Of a stretch of 64,000 bases of DNA, positions 9,027 through 20,104 are shown in pieces (within the stretch, counting starts at the first letter, position 1; every line of letters starts with the position of its first letter). Source of the DNA: Nitratireductor thuwali (GTDB lineage Bacteria > Pseudomonadota > Alphaproteobacteria > Rhizobiales > Rhizobiaceae); NCBI RefSeq assembly GCF_036621415.1, contig NZ_CP030941.1, positions 682,001-746,000 of the forward strand. Direction: 5' to 3'. The notes beneath the pieces were generated by a model. It worked only from the letters and a program-made list of their open reading frames with translations. It did not search any database and was not told where the DNA came from. The translations under genes and the position numbers were made by a program.

Positions 9027-10496
9027 CTATTGGCCGCCCGCCGCCCGCGCGTTGAGGAGCCCGTACCCATAGTCGTCGTCGCGCCCCGGACGGCCCAGAT
9101 CGGTGGCCGTCTGCGCCAGCCGTGCGGCGATCTCGTCCGCGTCCAGCCTCTCGATGCGCATCAGATTGGCGATGGCGCCCGACACGACGGCGGCCGCGAA
9201 CGAGGTACCCGTTACCGCGTCCACGCCACCTCCCGGTATCGGTGCCAGCAGGTTCACGCCCGGCGCGGAGAGTTCGACGTAAGGGCCGCGATTGGCTTGT
9301 TCCATCAACGCATCCTGCGCATCCGTCGCCGTCACGGCGATGACGCCGTCATAGGCGGCGGGATAGCCGTAAGGTGCGCGCGGGCCGTTGTTTCCGGCAG
9401 CCGCCACCAGCACGACGCCGCGCTCGCGCGCCGCCCGGCATGCGGCCTCGAAAATGAGGTTCTTTGGTCCCACGAAGCTCATATTGATGATGCGCGCTTG
9501 CTGAGCCACCGCCCAGTCGAGCGCCGACAGAAGCACGTCCATGCTGGAGCGCCCGCCCTCGAAGGCGCGCGCATGGTGGATGCGGGCCCCCGGCGCCAGC
9601 CCCCGGAACGGACCGCCGCCGGCGATCAGCCCGGAAATCGATGTGCCATGGCCCCGCTCCTCGATGAAGCGGTCGGGCATGGCGTCGAAAACCCCGACAA
9701 CGGCCTCCTTGAGGGCAGGATGGTTCTCGTCCAGCGCCGTGTCGATCACCGCAATATCGATATCCGCCCCGCTCGCCTGCTCGGCGTTCAGCGCGATGCG
9801 TCCGAAGGCGTAGGGGATGATCTGCGCCGCCTGCTCCAGCGTATAGATATGGTTCGGCGCCTGCCCCAGCGCCCTCCCGTCGGCGGCGAGTTGGGCCAGT
9901 ACCACGCCCACCGGACGACCGTCCGGGATGCCGTAGCGTGCCACTGTCGTGCCAAGCAGCGCGGAGCCGCGCGAGGACCGCACTTCGAGCCCCAGCGCCG
10001 CGGCGACGGCTTCCGCCTCCGCCACGTCGCCGTCGATCGTCACCAGCACCTCATCGGGCACATGGTCGCCGACAACGGCCCGGAGCGGCACTGACGCCGC
10101 GGGCGCGCGCCGGCTGGGTGCAAAACCATTCGCCGGGGCAGCCCCGGCCCGCGCAGGCGAACCGCCATTCGCGCCGTCGGTGGATGAGGCTGGCGATGGG
10201 TTATCGGTCTGCCCGCCATTTGCCGGCGGCGTCGATCGTCTCTCCGGCAGATCGGCCCCCGGCCCTATGCTTCCTGGAGACCTGCCGAAGAGCTCGGCCA
10301 GGATACCTGGAAGGTAGACGACTCCCGGCTGCCGCGCATCCTCCTTCGCCTCTCGGCAACCCGGTTCGCTCTGGTCGTCGGCGCAATCCTGCGGGACCGT
10401 CCGCGTCACCGCCGGCGCATTCGTCTGTGCCTGCGCCATACCCGCCATCAGGGCAATCGCTGCTCCCAACAGAAACGCTGTCGTTTTCACTGTCAT
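9027..10496 (-). CDS. Secreted subtilisin-like (S8) serine protease
   Basis: Exported serine protease of 489 residues. Signal peptide about 1-23 (LLGAAIALMAGMAQAQ). Residues 24-140 form a low-complexity Pro/Ala/Gly/Ser-rich linker, 146-220 a small alpha/beta domain in the position of a propeptide, and 240-489 the S8 catalytic domain with Asp252 (DIAVIDTALDENH), His283 (GHGTSISGLIAGG), oxyanion Asn369/370 (AAAGNNGP) and Ser432 (GTSFAAAVVSG). It is third in an operon after an ECF sigma factor and its anti-sigma factor and overlaps the latter's stop by four bases (ATGA). That context suggests it acts in or on the sigma circuit or on the nearby surface proteins. Confidence 0.9.
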   Translation of the reverse strand: MTVKTTAFLLGAAIALMAGMAQAQTNAPAVTRTVPQDCADDQSEPGCREAKEDARQPGVVYLPGILAELFGRSPGSIGPGADLPERRSTPPANGGQTDNPSPASSTDGANGGSPARAGAAPANGFAPSRRAPAASVPLRAVVGDHVPDEVLVTIDGDVAEAEAVAAALGLEVRSSRGSALLGTTVARYGIPDGRPVGVVLAQLAADGRALGQAPNHIYTLEQAAQIIPYAFGRIALNAEQASGADIDIAVIDTALDENHPALKEAVVGVFDAMPDRFIEERGHGTSISGLIAGGGPFRGLAPGARIHHARAFEGGRSSMDVLLSALDWAVAQQARIINMSFVGPKNLIFEAACRAARERGVVLVAAAGNNGPRAPYGYPAAYDGVIAVTATDAQDALMEQANRGPYVELSAPGVNLLAPIPGGGVDAVTGTSFAAAVVSGAIANLMRIERLDADEIAARLAQTATDLGRPGRDDDYGYGLLNARAAGGQ

Positions 10497-11152
10497 TCGG
10501 CCTCCGGCCGTGCGCCCGCGATGACACGCGCCACCAGCGGCTGAGCTTCTAGTTCGGCGGCCAGACGGTCGTAGTCGGCGGCGGTTGAGACCGGCAGGAT
10601 GACGCGGTAAACGCCGCCCGGAAGCGGTCCCGCATCGATCTCAAGACGCAGCGACTGCAGCACGCCTGTCACTTCCGAGATAGGCGCCTCGTCATCGAAG
10701 CTGACCAGCACGAAAGGCAATTGCACCCGCTCCTCGCTCGTCCCGGCAACCGTATAATCGTCGGCATCCCTGGTAGAAATCCAAGCCGTTTGCGCCGCAA
10801 GCAGCGCGACGGCCAGCGCCGCCGTACCCCACGCCAGGCCGGATGACGGCGCTGCAAACCAGCCGCCCGCCCGTTTCAGCCAGGTTGTGCGGGCAAGGCG
10901 CGGCGGTCCCGATTCGCGCTCCAGCGCTGCCGAAAGCCGCGACAGCGCATCCGCGGGAGGGCGGATCGCCTCATTGCCCATGGCCGCGGCCGAATATTCG
11001 GCCTCCGCCTCTTCCAGCGCGATCGCCGCCGCCGGGTCGGAGGCCAGCCACCGCTCCACCGCTTCGCGCTCGTCGTCGCTCAGCGTACCGTTCAGATAAA
11101 ACGGCAGCAGCGTTTCCAGCTCGTCGCGCCGGTCCAGCTTGTCCGTGTTCAT
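10493..11152 (-). CDS. Membrane anti-sigma factor, zinc-less type
   Basis: Predicted inhibitor of the upstream ECF sigma factor, with which it overlaps by four bases. The start at 11152 gives 219 residues. The N-terminal 1-60 (LETLLPFYLNGTLSDDEREAV) looks like an anti-sigma domain, but the protein contains no cysteine at all, so it is not a zinc-binding ZAS domain. One membrane span lies at about 105-124 (LAWGTAALAVALLAAQTAW). The C-terminal 125-219 would be periplasmic and resembles, by eye, the pre-catalytic domain of the next-encoded protease. Function of the C-terminal part is inferred. Confidence 0.82.
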   Translation of the reverse strand: MNTDKLDRRDELETLLPFYLNGTLSDDEREAVERWLASDPAAAIALEEAEAEYSAAAMGNEAIRPPADALSRLSAALERESGPPRLARTTWLKRAGGWFAAPSSGLAWGTAALAVALLAAQTAWISTRDADDYTVAGTSEERVQLPFVLVSFDDEAPISEVTGVLQSLRLEIDAGPLPGGVYRVILPVSTAADYDRLAAELEAQPLVARVIAGARPEAE

Positions 11153-11781
11153 GGCCAACCTCTGTCGTAGCCGGCGGCCTTCAACGCTTCGCCGAGCTTC
11201 TTTCGGGCGTAGAACATGCGCGTCTTCACCGTTGCCACCGGTATGGCGAGGATCTCGCCGATCTCGCTTACCGACTTGCCGTGGTAATAGGCAAGGTCGA
11301 CGACCGTCCGGTGTTCTTCCGGCAGGTCGTCGATAAAGCGACGCAGCGCCGCGCTCTTGTCGTCCTTCATGGCCGTCACTTCGGGCGTGTCGGCGCCGTC
11401 CTCGACAGCTTCCGCCTGCCCCTCGTCCAGCGCCTGCTCGCGCCGGCGCCTCAGCGCCGAAAGCGCCTTGTAGCGGGCGATGCCGAGGAGCCATGTCGAC
11501 ACCTCCGCCCGCCCCTCGAAGCGCGGAGCCTGACGCCACACCTCCAGAAACACTTCATTTGCGACGTCGTCAGCCATGGTTTCCGATCCTGTCTGGCGCA
11601 TCACGAAACGGTAGACCCGCGCGTGATGGCGCATGAATAACAGCCTGACGGCCGCGCGCTCACCGCGCGCCGCCTGCTCGACGAGTTCCCGGTCCGAAAG
11701 CTGGTTCGACTGCGCTTTCATTCCCGGCGCCGCCCGCTTGGCTCGTTCTTCTGTGTGCTGTGACAGGTCAAAAGGGTTCAT
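11149..11781 (-). CDS. RNA polymerase ECF sigma factor
   Basis: Alternative sigma factor of 210 residues. Region 2 lies around residues 35-100 (ARVYRFVMRQTGSETMADD, EVFLEVWRQAPRF, WLLGIARYKALSALR) and region 4 around 145-200 (EEHRTVVDLAYYHGKSVSEI, helix-turn-helix IPVATVKTRMFYARKKL). A later in-frame Met at 11721 is an alternative start. First gene of the sigma/anti-sigma/protease operon and divergent from the secreted-protein genes, which are its most obvious candidate targets. Confidence 0.92.
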   Translation of the reverse strand: MNPFDLSQHTEERAKRAAPGMKAQSNQLSDRELVEQAARGERAAVRLLFMRHHARVYRFVMRQTGSETMADDVANEVFLEVWRQAPRFEGRAEVSTWLLGIARYKALSALRRRREQALDEGQAEAVEDGADTPEVTAMKDDKSAALRRFIDDLPEEHRTVVDLAYYHGKSVSEIGEILAIPVATVKTRMFYARKKLGEALKAAGYDRGWP

Positions 11782-12172
11782 CGGTTTTTCCCACCCCGGC
11801 GGACGCTAAACCATGGCTTGACGAAAAACCAGATAGTGATGTGACTGAACCTTTTTGCTCCTCCGCCGCACCCATTCTTGTGGGCCGCACTCAATGCGCG
11901 CCGCAAACACAGGAGCAAGAAAGATGAAACGAACTCATGACCGCGCATGGTCAACGGTTTCGCCTCGTCGCTCTCGTCCGCCTGCCGCAAGGCAGCCGGC
12001 ATCGATGGCCGGCGAGGCGCATTCGTTGACGCCGCGTAAGCTCGGGCGTATCCTTCGTTCAACCGAGGTCGGATGCCGCCTCGTTGCGGGGGAAATTGCC
12101 AAAGCCGGAACAACCGATCGCCCTGCCACGGGCTCTTCGGCGGTTTCTGCCACCGGCATCGGGGGGAATGCC
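11782..12172. other. Divergent promoter region of the envelope module
   Basis: 391 bases between the sigma operon and the propeller-protein gene. Both start sites must lie here. On the plus strand GAACC at about 11844 resembles an ECF -35 element, but I cannot pair it with a convincing -10. An AGGAG seven bases before an ATG at 11924 opens the same frame as the downstream gene; using it would add 83 residues ahead of an otherwise well-placed signal peptide, so I do not favour it. Confidence 0.4.
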
Positions 12173-14152
12173 ATGAGCGCGCACCGGCAATACGCAAGCA
12201 ATGGCTTGGGACGGGCGTTCCGGCCCGCTGCCCGGCTTCGGAACACGGCCGCCAGCCTGGCGCTGATGATCGCCGCCAATCTCGGCTTCGCGGCCCCCGC
12301 CGCCGCCCAGGAAGGCGCGATCATTCAACCAGGCTTCATGGCACAGACAGGTTTTCCCGGCACCATCATTCCGGGCTTCGAGGAAGGGCTTCTGCCGGGT
12401 GTCGACCCGGTCGACGAGACCTTCATCGATATGGACCGTGCATCCTTGCGCATTTTCGACATGACCTTCCTCGGCGCGCCGCCGGAAGGCCAGATCGTCT
12501 ACACGCCGCCGCCCTTCGAGGTGATGGCGGGCCAGATCGGCCAGGTGTTCGGCCTAGCCTATGATGACGGCAAGCGCGCCGGCACGCCCGAAATCGTGCC
12601 AAACCTCTATGCCGCCGCCACGTCCTTCCATGGCGTCCAGATTGTCACGCCCGACGAGGACGAGGATGGCAGGCCCGAGCGGCGGCGGCGCGGCGCGCCC
12701 GACGCCCGCTTCATGGACGGCCAGTTCGGCCTCGAGAATGGCGGCGGTCCCGGCTCGATCTGGAAGATCGACGGGCTGACCGGAAAGGTCGGGCTCTTCG
12801 CCGATATCGAGACCAACAGCGGCCCGGGCATCGGCAATATCGCCTTTGACCGCTCGCACAGGCAGTTCTTTGCCTCGGACCTCGATTCCGGCCTCATCCA
12901 CCGCATAGACATCGACGGTAACCTGATCGACACATTCGATCACGGTATCGATGGCAGGCTCGCGCGCGGACTGGACACGATCGCTGACGATGGGGCGGTG
13001 ATGGACATTCGGGGTGCCGCCTTCGATACGGAAGAAACCCGCACCTGGGGCTATACACAAGAGGAGCGCCGCATCTACGGCCTCGCCGTTCACGGCGGCC
13101 GGCTCTATTACGCCGTAGGCGAGGAAGCCGAAATCTGGTCCATCGGCATCGCCCGCGACGGAACCTTCGCCGGCGATCCGCGCTGGGAGCTGACGGTCGA
13201 CGCGGAAGAAGACCTGCCCGTCACCGACATCGCCTTCGATACCAAGGGCTTCATGTATCTGGCCCAGCGCGGCGAGATCGAAAACCGTTACGATTATTCC
13301 AGCTTTGCCGACAGCGGCGAGGCCGAGGTCCTGCGCTACTGGCGCGAGAGCCCCGACGACCCTGAAACCGACAGCATCTGGGTCCCGGTTCCCCAAACCT
13401 ACGCAGTGGGTTTCCCCCAGCCGCATCTGCAGGCGACCGGCGGCATCGATCTTCAGTACGGCTATGATTCGCAAGGCCTCATCAACACCAGTGCCTGCGC
13501 GGCCACGCTGGTGAAGACCGGCGACAAGCTGCGCGACGATCCGGCATTGGCCGACCGCCTTATCGAGGGCGGGCCGCTCTCCGTCCACGGCGTCCAGCTC
13601 ACCGCCTCCTTCCTGGTGCGGCCGCAAAACGAGCCGCCTTTCGGCTCGTGGTTCGCCGATTTCGACGGCTTCTTCGCCGATCCGGAAGTCATGGGCCATG
13701 TCGGCGATGTGGAGGTCTGGCGTCCTTGCGAAGGCCGTGCCGGCTGGTACGAGCCGTTGCCCTATCCCGGCGATCTGCCTGTGCCCGGCTGGCCGCCCGG
13801 ATGGCCGCCAACGGACGAACTGCCCCAATGTCTCGAGGTCGAGGTGGTGGAATATTTCTGCACGCCCGCCGGTCTCGAGGCCGACCTTTATGTCCATGAC
13901 CGCGCCGGCATCGGCGGCGATTCGCTGGTCAGCAAATCGCTCACCCCCGGCGTTGGCGTTTCCCCGTCAAAGCAGACGGTTCCGAGCCTGGCGACGCCCT
14001 TCACGCTTGGCGTGACCGGCCATCTGCCCGGCGAGACCGTCGACCTCGGCCTTTGTTTCTACAAGGATGCCGATGCCAAGGCGGGCGGCTACTTCCCTTG
14101 CTGCAAGGTGACGCTGCCGCTTGAGACGCCCCTTGAATCCTGTGCGCCGTGA
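12173..14152 (+). CDS. Secreted propeller-like protein of unknown function
   Basis: I do not recognise a named family. Start at 12173 has a GGGGGGA ribosome-binding site and puts a signal peptide at residues about 20-50 (AASLALMIAANLGFAAPAAAQ). The 659-residue protein has repeated short beta-type segments typical of propeller folds (GSIWKIDGLTGKVGLFAD, GLIHRIDIDGNLIDTFDHG, RIYGLAVHGGRLYYAVG, VTDIAFDTKGFMYLAQRG), an acidic DEDEDGRPERRRRG insertion, and a Cys-containing C-terminal domain (about 570-659) recalling bacterial adhesin-type domains. It ends in a four-base overlap with a GTG of the DUF11 gene frame and is very probably cotranscribed with it. Divergent from the sigma operon. Probably a surface or periplasmic structural protein. 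Confidence 0.75.
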   Translation: MSAHRQYASNGLGRAFRPAARLRNTAASLALMIAANLGFAAPAAAQEGAIIQPGFMAQTGFPGTIIPGFEEGLLPGVDPVDETFIDMDRASLRIFDMTFLGAPPEGQIVYTPPPFEVMAGQIGQVFGLAYDDGKRAGTPEIVPNLYAAATSFHGVQIVTPDEDEDGRPERRRRGAPDARFMDGQFGLENGGGPGSIWKIDGLTGKVGLFADIETNSGPGIGNIAFDRSHRQFFASDLDSGLIHRIDIDGNLIDTFDHGIDGRLARGLDTIADDGAVMDIRGAAFDTEETRTWGYTQEERRIYGLAVHGGRLYYAVGEEAEIWSIGIARDGTFAGDPRWELTVDAEEDLPVTDIAFDTKGFMYLAQRGEIENRYDYSSFADSGEAEVLRYWRESPDDPETDSIWVPVPQTYAVGFPQPHLQATGGIDLQYGYDSQGLINTSACAATLVKTGDKLRDDPALADRLIEGGPLSVHGVQLTASFLVRPQNEPPFGSWFADFDGFFADPEVMGHVGDVEVWRPCEGRAGWYEPLPYPGDLPVPGWPPGWPPTDELPQCLEVEVVEYFCTPAGLEADLYVHDRAGIGGDSLVSKSLTPGVGVSPSKQTVPSLATPFTLGVTGHLPGETVDLGLCFYKDADAKAGGYFPCCKVTLPLETPLESCAP

Positions 14153-14163
14153 GGGAGGGAGAG

Positions 14164-17100
14164 ATGACCACGTTCACTTTCGCCCCTTCGCGGGAACGCA
14201 ATTCAAATCCGGTCATGGAGACGATCATGAACCCCCTGTACCAGGCCGCGCGCGCGCCGCGCTGGCTTTTGGCGGCAGGCATGGCGCTCTCCACAGCGCT
14301 CATGCCGCTGACCATCGCACCTGCCAATGCGCAGGTTCCCGGAGGCATGGAGCCTCGCATAGAACTCGAACCCCTGGAGCCGGTGGAGCCGGCGCCGGAA
14401 CGTGAAAAGCTCGTCCCCTTCTTCGAGAAGACGGGCCGCCAGCTCGATTGCGATTATGTCCAGTACCGCCTGCGCTTCGGCGTGCGCGGTGATCCGGCCA
14501 TGATCGGCCATCCGATACTGGCGACGCTGCTCGACAATGTCCGCTTCGACCTCCAGGACCAGTTGCCTGGCGACCTGGCGATCGTCGATGTCAGCATATC
14601 GGGTGACATAACAGGGCCGGGCGGCGGTGCCGCGCCCTCTCACACGGTCGGCACGACGGCCACCCCGGACGATTCCCTGTCGCTGGCCGACTTCCGCGTG
14701 TCGGCCGCCGATCTCGATGGCGACGGCAGCCTCACGGAGCGCTATGCCATTATCGAGATCAAGGCGAAGATCGACCAGGCCGCCTTCCCGGCCGTCACCA
14801 ATGTCGACAATCAGGGCAACATCACCCTGCAGCGCGCCGATGTCGGCGGCGGCCTGGGCACAATGCCCTCGCACGACCCGGCCATCCCCGATGACGGCGA
14901 CTGGAAGACCGGCGCGCCGACCACCATCGCCATCGACGTCACCGATTGCGAACCGCCTCCGCCTCCGCCCGGCGGTGACCCGGAAGAGGCATGCTTCGCG
15001 GTCGAGACCGGCGAGGTCGATTGCGTGCCCGGCGGCGGCGCCTACATCTACCGCATGCATGTCGGACCGGAGATGGCGGGCAATGTCGTCATGGTCTCCT
15101 CGACCACGCCTGGCATCGTCATCGATCCGGCTTCGCAGGTGGTTCCCGCCGGCGGCGGCACACTGGAATGGAAAATCATCGGGGCCCTCCCCGGCGAGAC
15201 CGTCCATCTGGTGGTGACCGGCGTCGAGACCTATGCGGGTCCTGCCGAGGGCGTCGGCCTGTGTTGCTCGCAGACCGTCGATATCGAAATCCCGGAGGAT
15301 CTCGATTGCCCGGACGAGGAAGGCGAGCCCGACATCAAGGTCGAAAAGCGCGCCGACGAAGCCATGTGCGAGCCGGAAGGCCCATGCGACTTCACCATCC
15401 GCGTATCGAATGCCGGCGACGCGCCCTATACCGGCAAGATCGTGCTGGGCGAAGTCACCGCCCCCGGCCACGCAGACATCATCGCCGGCCCCAACGCGCC
15501 CTGGACCTGCGTGCCCATGGCCAGCCCCGCTTCCTGCGAACATCCCGAAACCACTCTCAACCCGGGCGAGTTCGTGGACCTGAAGCTTGGCTTCCAGCCC
15601 GGCCCGGCATGGCCCGGAAGCGTCCTCCGCAACTGCGCCGAATACGACTACACGGCCAGCGGCAAGGATGCGTTCGGCGATCCGACCAACGACAAGGCCT
15701 GCGCATCGATCAAGATATGCAAACCCGGCGATCCCGAATGCACGCCTCCCGAGGGCAACACCCCCGACATCGGAATGCGCAAGCGCGCCGAGCCGGCCGT
15801 GTGCACCCCCGACGGCCTGTGCACCTACGTGGTCACGGTCTATAATGCCGGCCCCGCCAACATCGCAGCTCCCATCACGGTGGTCGATACGTTCCCGCTG
15901 GGCGACGTCGCCTCGGCGAGTTTCAGCCCGACCCCGCCCTGGGCCTGCGTGCCGCTGGCCGGCAACCAGTTCGAGTGCAAGCATCCGATGCTGGTGCTGG
16001 CTCCCGGCGCCACCACCGACATCCAGGTGACGGCGGTGGTGGCGGACTACCCGTCCAACATGGTGGAGAACTGCGCCAAGGTGGAAGCTCTCACGGGCGA
16101 AACCAATCTCGCCAACAACGAGGCCTGCGCCAAGGCGACGATCCCCGACCGCCCGGGCGGCGAGCCGCAATTGCGGATACAGAAGACCTGCGAAGCGACG
16201 GTGTCGTCGGGTTCTGTCGCATGCCGCATCACCGTGTCCAATCCCGGCACCGCCGCCCCCATGGGCCCGGTACGGGTGAACGATGCGGCAACGCTGATCG
16301 GCGGCGGTGCGCCTGTCGAGATCGGTTCTGTCTCGCCGGACGGGCCGGAATGGACTTGCGGTGCGGTTCCGGCCGCAACGCTGGCCTGCGAAATCCCCGG
16401 CGCCGTCATGATGCCGGGAACGAGCCGCCACTTCGACGTGACGGTCAACGTCTCGCCCAACGAGCGGTTCGAGAACTGCGCGCGCGGTTCCTTCGGCCCG
16501 GCGCCGGGCGACGATATCGTCTACCCGTTCGGCGAAGCCTGCGCCGAGGGCGGTACTGGAATCTCGGTCGAAAAGACCGGCGACAGCCAGTGCCTGCTGG
16601 GGCAGCCCTGCACATTCGAGATCACCATCACGAATGACGGGCCAGCCGCCATCTCCGGCCCCATGCGCATCGGCGATGCCTTGACGGTCGAGGGTTTCGG
16701 CTCCACGCCGGCGACCATCGTTTCGGTGAACCCGCCCTTCGGCTGCTCGCCGGAGCCTTCGGAACTGCCCTTCGTCTGCGAGACCACCCTCGGCCTGGCG
16801 CCCGGCGAAAGCCGTAGCCACGAGGTCACGGTCGAGCTGCCGCTGGATGCAGACCTGGCCAGTGAGGTCGGCAACGGTGCGCAAGGCCGCAACTGTGCCG
16901 CCGTCATCGGCATGGATGTAGACGTGCGTGAAGGCCCGCGCTCGCTGTCCGAGCCGGCTGGCGAAGCCTCGTCCCGCCCCTTCGACTGCCACGACTTCAC
17001 GGTCCTGGCCGATGAGGAGGAGGAACAATGCTCGCCCGGTTTTGTCCTGAACAATGACGGCCGCTGTGTCTGCCCGGAAGGCACCACCTTCCGCAATGGG

Positions 17101-17793
17101 CAGTGCGTGGGCGACATTCAGACGACGCCCATCCCCGTGCCGACGCCGCGTCCCAACCGGCCGGACCCTCAGCCCAAGCAGCCCGAGCGTCCGCGTCCGC
17201 AGGCGGACCCGCAGTGCAAGCTGCTGCCGGGCCAGATCCGCACCCAGGACGGACGTTGCATCTGCCCCCGCGGAACGCGCCTGCAGAACGGCCGTTGCGT
17301 CAAGCCGCAGGTCCAGCGTGAATGCCCGCAAGGCACGACCGGCCGCTATCCGAACTGCCGACCGGTCGTCCAGGAACGCTGCCCGCCTGGAACCGCCTTC
17401 GTGGCCGGGCGCTGCCGCAGGCCAGAAGTACAGCGGGAGTGCCCGCCCGGCACCACGGGCCGCTACCCCAACTGTGCGCCAATCGTGCGGCCGCGCTGCC
17501 CGCAGGGCACGACGGGGACCTTCCCTAACTGCCGTCCGACCGTGCAGCGTCGTTGCCCGCAAGGCACCACGGGGCAATATCCCAACTGCCGCCCGGTCGA
17601 GCAGCGCCGCTGCCCGCCAGGGACCACGGGACAGTATCCGAACTGCCGGCAGACCACGCCGCCGACGGTTACCCGTCCTCCGCAGGTCACCCGGCCTCCG
17701 GTCCAGCGGCAGGTTCCGCAGTTGAACCGGCCCCAGTTGCAGATCCGGCCGCAACTTCTTCTGCGGCCGCGCACAGACCAGCAAGTCCAGTAG
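14164..17793 (+). CDS. Large secreted DUF11-repeat protein with Cys-rich tandem-repeat tail
   Basis: 1209-residue secreted protein. Start at 14164 has a strong GGGAGGGAGAG site; a signal peptide follows (LLAAGMALSTALMPLTIAPANAQ, about 35-57). Residues about 60-260 form a unique domain, 270-385 a Cys-containing domain like that at the end of the preceding protein, then four DUF11-type beta-sandwich units starting near residues 390 (DIKVEKRADEAMC), 535 (DIGMRKRAEPAVC), 670 (LRIQKTCEAT) and 800 (ISVEKTGDSQC). From about 955 on it is Cys/Pro-rich with CPxGT motifs, ending in six tandem 19-20-residue units and a basic Pro/Gln tail. DUF11 domains occur in long surface proteins; an extended extracellular or outer-membrane-bound structure is inferred. 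A strong terminator follows. Confidence 0.85.
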   Translation: MTTFTFAPSRERNSNPVMETIMNPLYQAARAPRWLLAAGMALSTALMPLTIAPANAQVPGGMEPRIELEPLEPVEPAPEREKLVPFFEKTGRQLDCDYVQYRLRFGVRGDPAMIGHPILATLLDNVRFDLQDQLPGDLAIVDVSISGDITGPGGGAAPSHTVGTTATPDDSLSLADFRVSAADLDGDGSLTERYAIIEIKAKIDQAAFPAVTNVDNQGNITLQRADVGGGLGTMPSHDPAIPDDGDWKTGAPTTIAIDVTDCEPPPPPPGGDPEEACFAVETGEVDCVPGGGAYIYRMHVGPEMAGNVVMVSSTTPGIVIDPASQVVPAGGGTLEWKIIGALPGETVHLVVTGVETYAGPAEGVGLCCSQTVDIEIPEDLDCPDEEGEPDIKVEKRADEAMCEPEGPCDFTIRVSNAGDAPYTGKIVLGEVTAPGHADIIAGPNAPWTCVPMASPASCEHPETTLNPGEFVDLKLGFQPGPAWPGSVLRNCAEYDYTASGKDAFGDPTNDKACASIKICKPGDPECTPPEGNTPDIGMRKRAEPAVCTPDGLCTYVVTVYNAGPANIAAPITVVDTFPLGDVASASFSPTPPWACVPLAGNQFECKHPMLVLAPGATTDIQVTAVVADYPSNMVENCAKVEALTGETNLANNEACAKATIPDRPGGEPQLRIQKTCEATVSSGSVACRITVSNPGTAAPMGPVRVNDAATLIGGGAPVEIGSVSPDGPEWTCGAVPAATLACEIPGAVMMPGTSRHFDVTVNVSPNERFENCARGSFGPAPGDDIVYPFGEACAEGGTGISVEKTGDSQCLLGQPCTFEITITNDGPAAISGPMRIGDALTVEGFGSTPATIVSVNPPFGCSPEPSELPFVCETTLGLAPGESRSHEVTVELPLDADLASEVGNGAQGRNCAAVIGMDVDVREGPRSLSEPAGEASSRPFDCHDFTVLADEEEEQCSPGFVLNNDGRCVCPEGTTFRNGQCVGDIQTTPIPVPTPRPNRPDPQPKQPERPRPQADPQCKLLPGQIRTQDGRCICPRGTRLQNGRCVKPQVQRECPQGTTGRYPNCRPVVQERCPPGTAFVAGRCRRPEVQRECPPGTTGRYPNCAPIVRPRCPQGTTGTFPNCRPTVQRRCPQGTTGQYPNCRPVEQRRCPPGTTGQYPNCRQTTPPTVTRPPQVTRPPVQRQVPQLNRPQLQIRPQLLLRPRTDQQVQ
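17317..17661 (+). repeat. Six tandem CPxGTTGxYPNC coding repeats
   Basis: Six in-frame units of 57 bases (the second is 60 and divergent), beginning at 17317, 17374, 17434, 17491, 17548 and 17605. The consensus is R-R-C-P-x-G-T-T-G-x-Y-P-N-C-R-P-x-x-Q, with two cysteines per unit ten residues apart. DNA of units 4-6 is nearly identical over CCCGCARGGCACSACGGGG-like stretches, so the array is probably prone to copy-number change. Confidence 0.9.
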
Positions 17794-17986: not shown

Positions 17987-19978
17987 CTACCGACGCTCGG
18001 CCACGGGCGAGACCAGAGGCGTGATCCGGCGAACGGCAACCCGCCGGTTTTCCCGCTCGGGCTCCTGCGTGTCTATTTTCAGGTACTGTTCACCGTAGCC
18101 CTGGGTCACCAGGTTTTCCGGCGGCAGGCCGAAAACGTCTGTGAGCGCCCGCGCGACAGCCTCGGCCCGGCGGTCCGACAGCGCCAGGTTGGCAGTCTCA
18201 GACCCCACGGCGTCAGTGTGACCTTCAATCAGGAAGGTCTCTGCCGGATTCTCATCCAGCAACCGCTCCATGGCCGTCGCCAGCGCCTCGATGTCCCTGA
18301 TCTCGCTTTCCTCGATGCGCGCCGAACCGAACTCGAACTCGATGGTGTCGAGGTCGATGCGCCGCACCATGTCGCGGACCCGGGGCGAGCGCTTCACTTC
18401 TTCGAGCGAATAGAGCCGCTGCACCTGCTCCACCGGAGGCTGGTCAAGGAACTCGTAGTACCGGTCCGGATTTTCAACCCGCTGGGCCTCCAGGACATAT
18501 TCGCTCAAGGGAATCGTGAGCCGGAACGGGCCGAGCTCGATTGCCGGATCCTCATAACGGGCCACCCGGTCGAAGCGGTCCTCCGGCACATACACGAGCA
18601 CATGTTCCCGTCCATCCGGCGTCACCCGCACCCGGCGGAGAACATCGCCGTAGCTGTTGCGGATGGTGATGATCCGCGTTCCGTCCGGACGCTCGATGAC
18701 CTCACGCACGCGACCGTTCCGCAGGTCGTCATAGTAGACCAGGTCGTCGCGACGCACGAGGCGGTCATAATCGGGGCTTTCGATATAGATGTTGTTGTTG
18801 TACTGGATGATCTTGCGGTTATCGTTGTACTCTTCGATCACCTGAGCACCCTCCGGCACGTGCCCCAGGAACGCCTGCCGGCGTACGCGGGTGTCTTCCG
18901 GCGTCTGGCCCAGTTCGATCCGCTCGCCCTCCTCTTCCACCATTTGGCGGATTTCCGTGCGTAGCGTTTCCGGGTCTACCAGATCCGCCTGGGCTTCCCC
19001 GTCGCTTTCAGGCGCGGGCGCTTCCTCTGCGGCCTGTTCTTCCTGCCCGCCCTCGACCGGCGGCTCATGGCCTTCGCCTTCAACCGTGGCGTTCGGCTCG
19101 GCCTGGTCCTTCTGGCTGTCGGGCACTGGAGCCGCATCTTCAGATGGCGCCTCCTGGCCCTCAGCAGCATCGGCCTCGACGCTGGCCTCGGCATCCGCGT
19201 CGGCATCGGCCTCCGCATCCGTCTCGCCGGGCTCTACAGCGGTGCCGCCATCGATGGGTTCGTCTTCGGCGGCCGCATCCGCCGGCGCATCTGCACCCGT
19301 CTCTTCCTCGGCGGCCTGTTCGGCTGCGACACACTCGCCGCCGTCGGGCGCGCGCACCGTGCCGGGCGGGCATTCTTCCACGGCCTCGCCCTCGTCCGGC
19401 GTGGTCTGCTCGGCCTCTCCGGCAGGCTCGATAACGGTTTCCTCCGTGGGTACGGCCTCTTCCGCAGCGGGGCTTTCCATCGGCTCATCGGCTGGCGCTT
19501 CCTCGCCGCCCTCAACCGCAGGCTCTTCCACTGCTTCTGCGGGCGCCTCCATAGTCTCGACCGGCTGGTCTGTCTCCGCACCCGCCGGCGGCGCTGCTTC
19601 CTCCTCGGCAGGAGCAGGATCGGATTCCACAGGCGCGTCGGCAGGGGCTTCCTCACCGCTCTCAGCGGCCGGTGCCTCCTCCGTTTCCGCCGGAGCCTCC
19701 TCCTCCACGGGAGGCGGCTCTTCGGTGGGAGTAGGCTCTGCGGCCGGCTCCTCGGCCTCTTCTTCTACCACTGGCGCGCAGATGCCGTCAGGTTCAGTGG
19801 GCGCCGTGCCTGGCGGGCACTCCTCACCCTCGCCTGCAGGTTCTTCTGCCTGCGCCAGGACGACCACGCTGTCGCGCGTGGCCCAGGGGCTGCCCTCGGT
19901 GCGCTCTTCAGCGGCCACCTGCCCTGCCATCAACAGGCTCAGGGCGGTTCCAGCCATAAACAATTTCGATTTCGTCAT
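17987..19978 (-). CDS. OmpA-family protein with long acidic Pro/Ala/Glu region
   Basis: Envelope protein of 663 residues that should anchor to peptidoglycan by its C-terminal OmpA domain (about 530-655: IEFEFGSARIEESEIRDIEAL, FLIEGHTDAVGSETANLALSDRRA, VTQGYGEQYL). A signal peptide lies at 1-24 (AGTALSLLMAGQVAAEE). Residues about 40-340 are extremely rich in Glu, Ala and Pro, with two islands ECPPGTAPTEPDGICAP and ECPPGTVRAPDGGECVA. Residues 350-520 form a mixed domain of short beta segments. Start at 19978 rather than GTG 19993, since GGAG lies nine bases upstream of the ATG. It faces the DUF11 gene and shares its CPPGT motif. Confidence 0.88.
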   Translation of the reverse strand: MTKSKLFMAGTALSLLMAGQVAAEERTEGSPWATRDSVVVLAQAEEPAGEGEECPPGTAPTEPDGICAPVVEEEAEEPAAEPTPTEEPPPVEEEAPAETEEAPAAESGEEAPADAPVESDPAPAEEEAAPPAGAETDQPVETMEAPAEAVEEPAVEGGEEAPADEPMESPAAEEAVPTEETVIEPAGEAEQTTPDEGEAVEECPPGTVRAPDGGECVAAEQAAEEETGADAPADAAAEDEPIDGGTAVEPGETDAEADADADAEASVEADAAEGQEAPSEDAAPVPDSQKDQAEPNATVEGEGHEPPVEGGQEEQAAEEAPAPESDGEAQADLVDPETLRTEIRQMVEEEGERIELGQTPEDTRVRRQAFLGHVPEGAQVIEEYNDNRKIIQYNNNIYIESPDYDRLVRRDDLVYYDDLRNGRVREVIERPDGTRIITIRNSYGDVLRRVRVTPDGREHVLVYVPEDRFDRVARYEDPAIELGPFRLTIPLSEYVLEAQRVENPDRYYEFLDQPPVEQVQRLYSLEEVKRSPRVRDMVRRIDLDTIEFEFGSARIEESEIRDIEALATAMERLLDENPAETFLIEGHTDAVGSETANLALSDRRAEAVARALTDVFGLPPENLVTQGYGEQYLKIDTQEPERENRRVAVRRITPLVSPVAERR

Positions 19979-20104
19979 CGTCCGTCGCTCCACGGTGGGA
20001 TGTCCCTACGGCGTCGATAAGCGGCAGCGAAGCCGTTGGTTCCCTTGCACCCGTCGTGCCACCCGCCGGCACAGCCCCTTGACGCCCGGCCCTGACCGCG
20101 CGAC

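Follow-up and report, generated by a model that had tools for sequence, protein, structure and literature searches.

A probable divergent relative of subtilase prodomains at the periplasmic end of an ECF anti-sigma factor encoded beside an S8 protease in Nitratireductor thuwali

In a stretch of 64,000 nucleotides from the genome of Nitratireductor thuwali (contig NZ_CP030941.1, positions 682,001 to 746,000; the whole stretch is called the window below) we found an operon encoding an extracytoplasmic function (ECF) sigma factor, a membrane-bound anti-sigma factor and a secreted serine protease of the S8 (subtilisin) family. The periplasmic C-terminal domain of the anti-sigma factor (C-domain) is, as a well supported reading of sequence profiles and Pfam matches, a divergent relative of the prodomains of PF22148-like subtilases. 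Equally well supported is that the sigma/anti-sigma/S8 trio is widely conserved and that S8 presence tracks the C-domain across Proteobacteria. The genes and domains of the operon are the following.

11149..11781, minus strand: ECF sigma factor gene (Pfam Sigma70_r2/r4; NF009168 with 283 bits against a cut-off of 236)
10493..11152, minus strand: anti-sigma factor gene, 219 residues, predicted single-pass membrane protein
10967..11131, minus strand: helical anti-sigma domain at residues about 8-62 (hits to zf-HC2 and DUF4880 stay under the respective cut-offs; helices in the AlphaFold2 model)
10775..10843, minus strand: transmembrane helix of the anti-sigma, residues 104-126 (AlphaFold2 helix; hydrophobic sequence)
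10739..10756, minus strand: conserved juxtamembrane motif, residues 133-138, YTVAGT in the window, candidate site-1 cleavage site (column statistics)
10517..10717, minus strand: propeptide-like C-domain, residues 146-212, beta-alpha-beta-beta-alpha-beta (profiles, Pfam relatives, AlphaFold2)
9027..10496, minus strand: secreted S8 serine protease, 489 residues (Pfam Peptidase_S8 PF00082, E=4.1e-44)
9843..10055, minus strand: protease prodomain, residues about 148-218 (PF22148 weak here, E=0.066)
9060..9764, minus strand: S8 catalytic domain, residues 245-479 (Pfam)

The gene ends overlap along the order sigma, anti-sigma and S8 protease, all on the minus strand, and an earlier note on this DNA had given the genes and coordinates of this operon correctly. 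The window anti-sigma matched the NCBIfam antisigma model with E=9.6e-10, under the curated cut-off of that model, which was also matched at E<=1 by 81 of the 84 aligned anti-sigmas of the family. With a putative cytoplasmic anti-sigma domain, one predicted transmembrane helix and an adjoining ECF sigma gene the protein has the make-up of a membrane-bound ECF anti-sigma. The protease, whose closest named relative is from Nitratireductor luteus (88% identical), is laid out as a signal peptide (residues about 1-24, by eye), a long Pro/Gly/Ala-rich stretch, the prodomain and the catalytic domain, and its catalytic triad D252, H283 and S432 was unchanged in 54 of 54 aligned proteases. The two alignments comprise 84 of 310 anti-sigmas (A4) and 54 of 241 proteases (A5).

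The link between the C-domain and subtilase prodomains was provided by prodomains from outside the operon. Six such prodomains of the PF22148 (Fervidolysin_NPro-like) type compared to the deep C-domain profile, built from 309 sequences, gave P=1e-7 with a score of 38.0 and a permuted maximum of 16.6 (200 permutations), and the same six compared to the operon prodomain gave P=3.4e-11. They were taken from S8 genes without an anti-sigma match in short loci; eight were picked, two turned out empty (loci cut short) and six were used. Relative to two fold controls, the unrelated ferredoxin-like family NapD (24.5) and AsnC, likewise unrelated and of the same general fold (17.1), this bridge appears specific. 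PF22148 was also found directly, at E<=1 in 28 of the 54 operon proteases (best 4e-7) and in 11 of the 84 anti-sigmas (best 3.1e-4), among which it was the second most frequent Pfam family; when anti-sigmas were scanned singly, 6 out of 10 showed it, always within the C-domain. A search of 200 genomes with PF22148 returned 12 matches above the cut-off, one of them a homologous anti-sigma C-domain (G157:C1:54527-54712, in the anti-sigma open reading frame of locus L036), which passes the gathering score with 22.8 versus 21 bits. A further homologous anti-sigma, P0263, narrowly misses the same score (20.9 versus 21 bits). The likeness to S8 propeptides lies in the predicted fold and the profile relationship. 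Unlike PF22148 prodomains, the C-domain is not N-terminal to an S8 catalytic domain; it sits on a separate, membrane-tethered polypeptide and forms the end of the anti-sigma.

The earlier note had lined up four blocks of the window anti-sigma with the window protease by eye. As a pair of single sequences this likeness is not significant: Smith-Waterman alignment of anti-sigma residues 140-219 to protease residues 140-225 gave p=0.17 (2000 shuffles), semi-global alignment gave p=0.86, and the best BLASTP match between the two single sequences (E 4.7) was located outside the two proposed domains. Given p=0.17 and a best BLASTP E of 4.7, raw pairwise alignment was dropped as proof of likeness. 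Shallow profiles of C-domain and prodomain gave P=0.12. Deep profiles compared locally paired anti-sigma residues 146-212 with protease residues 148-214 (P=2.9e-4, score 22.4), the same pairing and register that had been seen by eye, and 300 runs with column-permuted profiles reached a top score of 16.0. With an earlier sequence set the values were P=5.5e-4 and 0 of 200 permuted profiles as high. The profile match of the two regions is hence significant with deep families. Searched against PDB sequences, the anti-sigma family gave 20 matches at E<=10 with ChrR (N-terminal half) on top and no propeptide among them, and a plasmid search with the window anti-sigma gave no match.

The AlphaFold2 model of the window anti-sigma has a predicted local distance difference test score (pLDDT) of 85 overall and of 89-98 for the C-domain blocks. 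Strands at residues 147-152, 171-177, 181-185 and 207-212 and helices at 158-167 and 191-202 make up a confidently predicted beta-alpha-beta-beta-alpha-beta domain of the propeptide type. In the structure comparison 11 of the 50 matches listed were subtilase or proprotein-convertase proforms or propeptides, as counted from entry titles. Fold comparison as proof of propeptide identity was dropped, as propeptides tie with Lrp/RAM, NapD and others.

Among loci L001-L089, an S8 gene was present in 58 out of 64 with a C-domain (54 downstream on the same strand) compared to 1 out of 20 without, and the trio described in the earlier note recurs accordingly beyond the window. Named genomes, counted one per species, showed S8 at 62 of 75 loci (53 times downstream, 8 times upstream and once on the opposite strand). 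Six of the 13 loci lacking it have less than 1,000 bases of downstream sequence and seven have room; for five of these seven, a strong S8 match that covers the prodomain is present at another place in the genome, and for the remaining two there is just a weaker match, confined to the catalytic part. For the class of genome G827, another class of the phylum, S8 occurred in 13 of 19 C-domain loci versus 1 of 10 others. Family members are named from Alpha- and Gammaproteobacteria, and from Betaproteobacteria by protein names. C-domain presence was set by profile coordinate (>=185 for L001-L089; >=195 of another profile for the G827 class and the motif counts), and divergent C-domains (e.g. L163, L191) are thus counted as C-domain-negative. 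The counts are not of independent lineages, as a single lineage contributes many members and loci of one genome that entered twice were kept (e.g. L019/L034, L028/L090); the duplicates L031-L033 were removed from the S8, motif, promoter-site and coevolution counts and kept in the promoter dyad count. Loci L024, L025 and L181 gave no anti-sigma match under the profile.

Within the genus of the window, locus L008 (genome G013) encodes an orphan C-domain membrane protein in which most of the anti-sigma domain is gone, the match beginning at query residue 41. Neither sigma nor S8 was matched in this locus, and the whole genome gave no S8 match either, which fits a joint loss. The genomes of the Rhodoplanes loci L112 and L125 encode unlinked prodomain-S8 regions (L196, L197) as the C-terminus of long proteins with GLUG repeats (GGLVGxN, by eye), an arrangement in which the protease looks as if riding on an adhesin.

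Behind the last strand of the C-domain the 84 anti-sigmas have a median of 2 residues (range 1-12), with 43 having 1-2 and 25 having 6-12, compared to 32-60 residues between the matching point and the start of the catalytic core in operon proteases. The inhibitory tail of S8 propeptides therewith appears to be absent from most C-domains of the family. Because most of them stop with the last beta strand or shortly behind it, a putative docking module fits better than an inhibitor. Of the propeptide mimic proposed in the earlier note, the propeptide-like nature stood by fold, profile and Pfam, whereas the role of an inhibitor plugging the active site fits most members less well. A subtilisin complex with a propeptide minus five C-terminal residues has been solved according to its PDB entry (3a3o).

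The variable linker between the membrane and the C-domain contains a conserved motif with the consensus YxTASG (84 sequences: Y 73% or F 15%, T 71%, A 76%, S 59%). Its strict form [YF]xTA[SGA] was present in 78 of 156 anti-sigmas with a C-domain and in 0 of 32 others; the window copy YTVAGT falls outside this strict form. Its shortness, its conservation and its closeness to the membrane would suit a place of site-1 cleavage.

Upstream of the sigma gene, TGAAC-N15-19-CGAC was found in 76 of 147 operons. The spacing was exactly 17 at 76 of the 79 sites, with a median of 44 bases to the sigma match, and dyad counts in block-shuffled sequence were about 0-2 (149 operons). The window contains two candidate promoters of this kind, with two secreted-protein genes following the divergent one.

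11752..11780, minus strand: candidate operon promoter TGAACC-N16-GCACACA, with a -10 half that deviates from the CGAC of the family consensus
11846..11874, plus strand: candidate divergent promoter TGAACC-N16-GCACCCA, about 300 bases before the ATG at 12173
12173..14152, plus strand: divergent gene 1, secreted protein of 659 residues, no Pfam match at E<=0.01
14149..17793, plus strand: divergent gene 2, surface-type protein carrying DUF7929 and DUF11, and CPxGTxGxYPNC repeats at its C-terminus

As the annotated ATG of the sigma gene overlaps the candidate -35 element, judged from promoter site and reading frame, Met21 (11721) is the more likely start of translation. The pattern TGAACC-N16-GCAC..A was written from the two window sites, and its expected number of 0.01 describes the rarity of such a pair and is not an independent test. 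A looser pattern, for which the -10 half was relaxed from CGAC to SSAC after the window had been seen, with TGAACC and the spacing taken from other genomes, had 4 matches in the 4.75 Mb genome and 0 for the reversed control; the third genome match precedes a gene for a small secreted BA14K protein. We infer that the sigma factor may read the TGAACC promoter and also drive the two secreted-protein genes of the window.

Relatives of divergent gene 1 were located upstream of the sigma gene on the opposite strand in 11 of 209 loci, in other genera, and five of those also had gene 2; most of the 209 loci have little upstream sequence. In L120, L139 and L142 relatives of both genes are joined in one frame. 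A loose CPxG..C repeat pattern matches the product of divergent gene 2 eight times, and Cys repeats of a similar kind are present in the N-terminal extensions of operon proteases (L015, L016, L134). Because Cys repeats (L015, L134) or GLUG repeats (L196, L197) occur on S8 proteases themselves, the surface proteins might be substrates of the protease. Further along the window (17987-19993, minus strand) lies a gene for a member of the OmpA family, which has an acidic stretch rich in Pro and Glu as well as CPPGT motifs resembling those in the divergent surface protein.

We propose that the operon might be a self-contained envelope-sensing switch, in which the sigma factor would read the promoter of its own operon and, in the window, would also drive the two secreted proteins. 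The co-encoded protease would dock on the membrane-tethered C-domain as a subtilase holds its own propeptide, and would stay active because the active-site-plugging tail is missing. Its site-1 cut in the anti-sigma would fall within or close to the juxtamembrane motif, after which a site-2 protease would free the sigma factor. While secreted substrates occupy the protease the anti-sigma would be spared, and accumulating free active protease would lead to sigma release; this direction of the circuit and the substrate competition are speculation. The model is supported by the domain homology, the AlphaFold2 fold, the S8 partnership, the tail loss, the linker motif and the promoter motif. Taken as a whole, namely that the C-domain, as a propeptide copy without the tail, brings the active protease to the anti-sigma for site-1 cleavage at the linker motif, we give it nearly an even chance. 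It is distinctly more doubtful that this would be a new class of sigma control, with the subtilase, docked beside a dedicated YxTASG cleavage site, being its own site-1 protease and receptor and the sigma factor reporting substrate-free protease while making both the protease and its substrates.

Several observations weigh against this model and the homology behind it. The window anti-sigma (P0001) itself had no PF22148 match up to E=10 in the Pfam scan, and the bridge depends on depth, dropping to P=4.2e-4 with 121 close relatives of the window anti-sigma alone. The NapD control scored 24.5 with the C-domain profile, above the 22.4 of its own operon prodomain, and because this control scores as high, the direct comparison would indicate a shared fold class and nothing beyond. 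The fold is common as well, since Lrp/RAM, ACT-type and NapD structures score as high as propeptides in the structure comparison. Sixteen C-domain-positive loci with more than 1 kb of downstream sequence hold no S8 match in the stretch examined (L008, L023, L044, L086, L088, L112, L124, L125, L151, L152, L160, L162, L174, L179, L183 and L194), and the synteny counts are partly circular as the search seeds were operon members. Half of the C-domain anti-sigmas (78 of 156) are without the strict juxtamembrane motif, and the window protein keeps 7 tail residues, making it a less clear case of tail loss. Distance-matrix coevolution, calculated for the 122 operons below L195 with all three genes and a prodomain, was weak (partial r given sigma of 0.27 for C-domain and catalytic domain and of 0.17 for anti-sigma domain and catalytic domain). 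C-domain and prodomain of the same operon had a mean rank of 0.404 (standard error 0.026, chance 0.5, n=122), slightly above random likeness, and lineage composition may explain this slight effect. Recent duplication or domain exchange within the operon found no good support in a rank of 0.404 versus 0.5, and the exchange between anti-sigma and protease considered in the earlier note was abandoned on this ground.

The C-domain might instead be a tethered inhibitor or anchor that binds the mature protease like a trans-acting propeptide and holds it inactive or at the membrane, until the protease is drawn away by secreted substrate or by misfolded protein, the anti-sigma changes state and sigma is freed. 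The same domain homology and synteny would be expected of it, and 25 of the 84 anti-sigmas, the window protein with its 7 residues included, do keep tails of 6-12 residues. In another genome (locus L222), the frame 1003-1701 codes for a small secreted protein in which PF22148 exceeds its cut-off, and it begins directly behind a frame that looks S8-like by eye, suggesting that trans-acting propeptides exist. What speaks against an inhibitor are the 43 of 84 proteins with 1-2 residues behind the last strand, which, going by the length that propeptide structures need to reach the active-site subsites, are probably too short; we regard this explanation as rather improbable. Slightly better placed, and still unlikely, is that the protease cuts the anti-sigma or is a mere regulon member, the C-domain being an old, common ferredoxin-like sensor that does not contact it. 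The common fold and the NapD control, as high as the direct comparison, agree with such a sensor, as does the sigma-S8 pairing in cases where the anti-sigma match is without a C-domain (Sinorhizobium meliloti rpoE6; L053), but the specificity of the PF22148 bridge (38.0 versus 24.5 and 17.1) and the tracking of the C-domain by S8 do not. That Ala/Leu-rich sequence makes the C-domain look propeptide-like by chance, with which the non-significant pairwise comparison would agree, is very improbable given that column-permuted nulls were beaten, that the AlphaFold2 fold is confident and that a homologous C-domain passes the curated PF22148 cut-off.

Compared to known systems, a docking C-domain would resemble the free-standing subtilisin inhibitors of family I9 (POIA1, yeast PBI2), propeptide folds that act in trans on a subtilase. 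These keep their inhibitory tail, which most anti-sigma C-domains studied here do not have. The E. coli anti-sigma RseA is likewise a single-pass protein, and accounts of it describe release by the site-1 periplasmic serine protease DegS followed by a site-2 protease (PMC8103513, PMC10202637); DegS differs in being an HtrA/PDZ protease and not of the subtilisin type. Subtilase domains in the context of ECF54 sigmas, which are without an anti-sigma, are noted in PMC8999054. In S. meliloti, rpoE6 (ECF26) is divergent from a serine protease gene that RpoE6 activates (PMC6180224); the passages covered give no mechanism for it. The RpoE6-EcfR6-SMa0142 system thus shares an ECF sigma, an anti-sigma and a nearby serine protease gene, there divergently transcribed. 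On pSymA (L287) the protease divergent from the sigma gene matched the A5 S8 profile with E=1.1e-85, and from the arrangement we judge this frame to be SMa0142. The S. meliloti anti-sigma differs in that its match covers profile positions 19-147 and stops before the propeptide-like C-domain, and the RpoE6 sequences given in PMC6180224 look different from the promoter motif TGAACC-N16-CGAC of the present family. In the same pSymA locus (11426-14770), behind the divergent S8 protease beside the sigma/anti-sigma pair, comes a frame with tandemly repeated NSSS.

The claim of the earlier note that no sigma circuit of such design has been described holds in part: the sigma-S8 pairing is published for rpoE6, while its anti-sigma is without the propeptide-like C-domain. 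The portions of published accounts of anti-sigma proteolysis and ECF contexts that were covered contained no subtilisin-type site-1 protease and no propeptide-derived docking domain. A literature search at the level of titles and abstract beginnings also gave no anti-sigma with a propeptide-like domain; such synteny could be mentioned in the main ECF re-classification paper, which lay outside this search. New here are the tail-less C-domains, the juxtamembrane YxTAS motif, the promoter motif upstream of the sigma gene and the conserved divergent secreted proteins.

If the proposed model is true, a domain for protease folding would have found a second use as the sensing part of a transcription switch, which would provide a direct molecular route from the status of an extracellular protease to gene expression. 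For a large family of anti-sigma factors it would also yield candidates for the site-1 protease, the site of cleavage, the promoter and the genes targeted.

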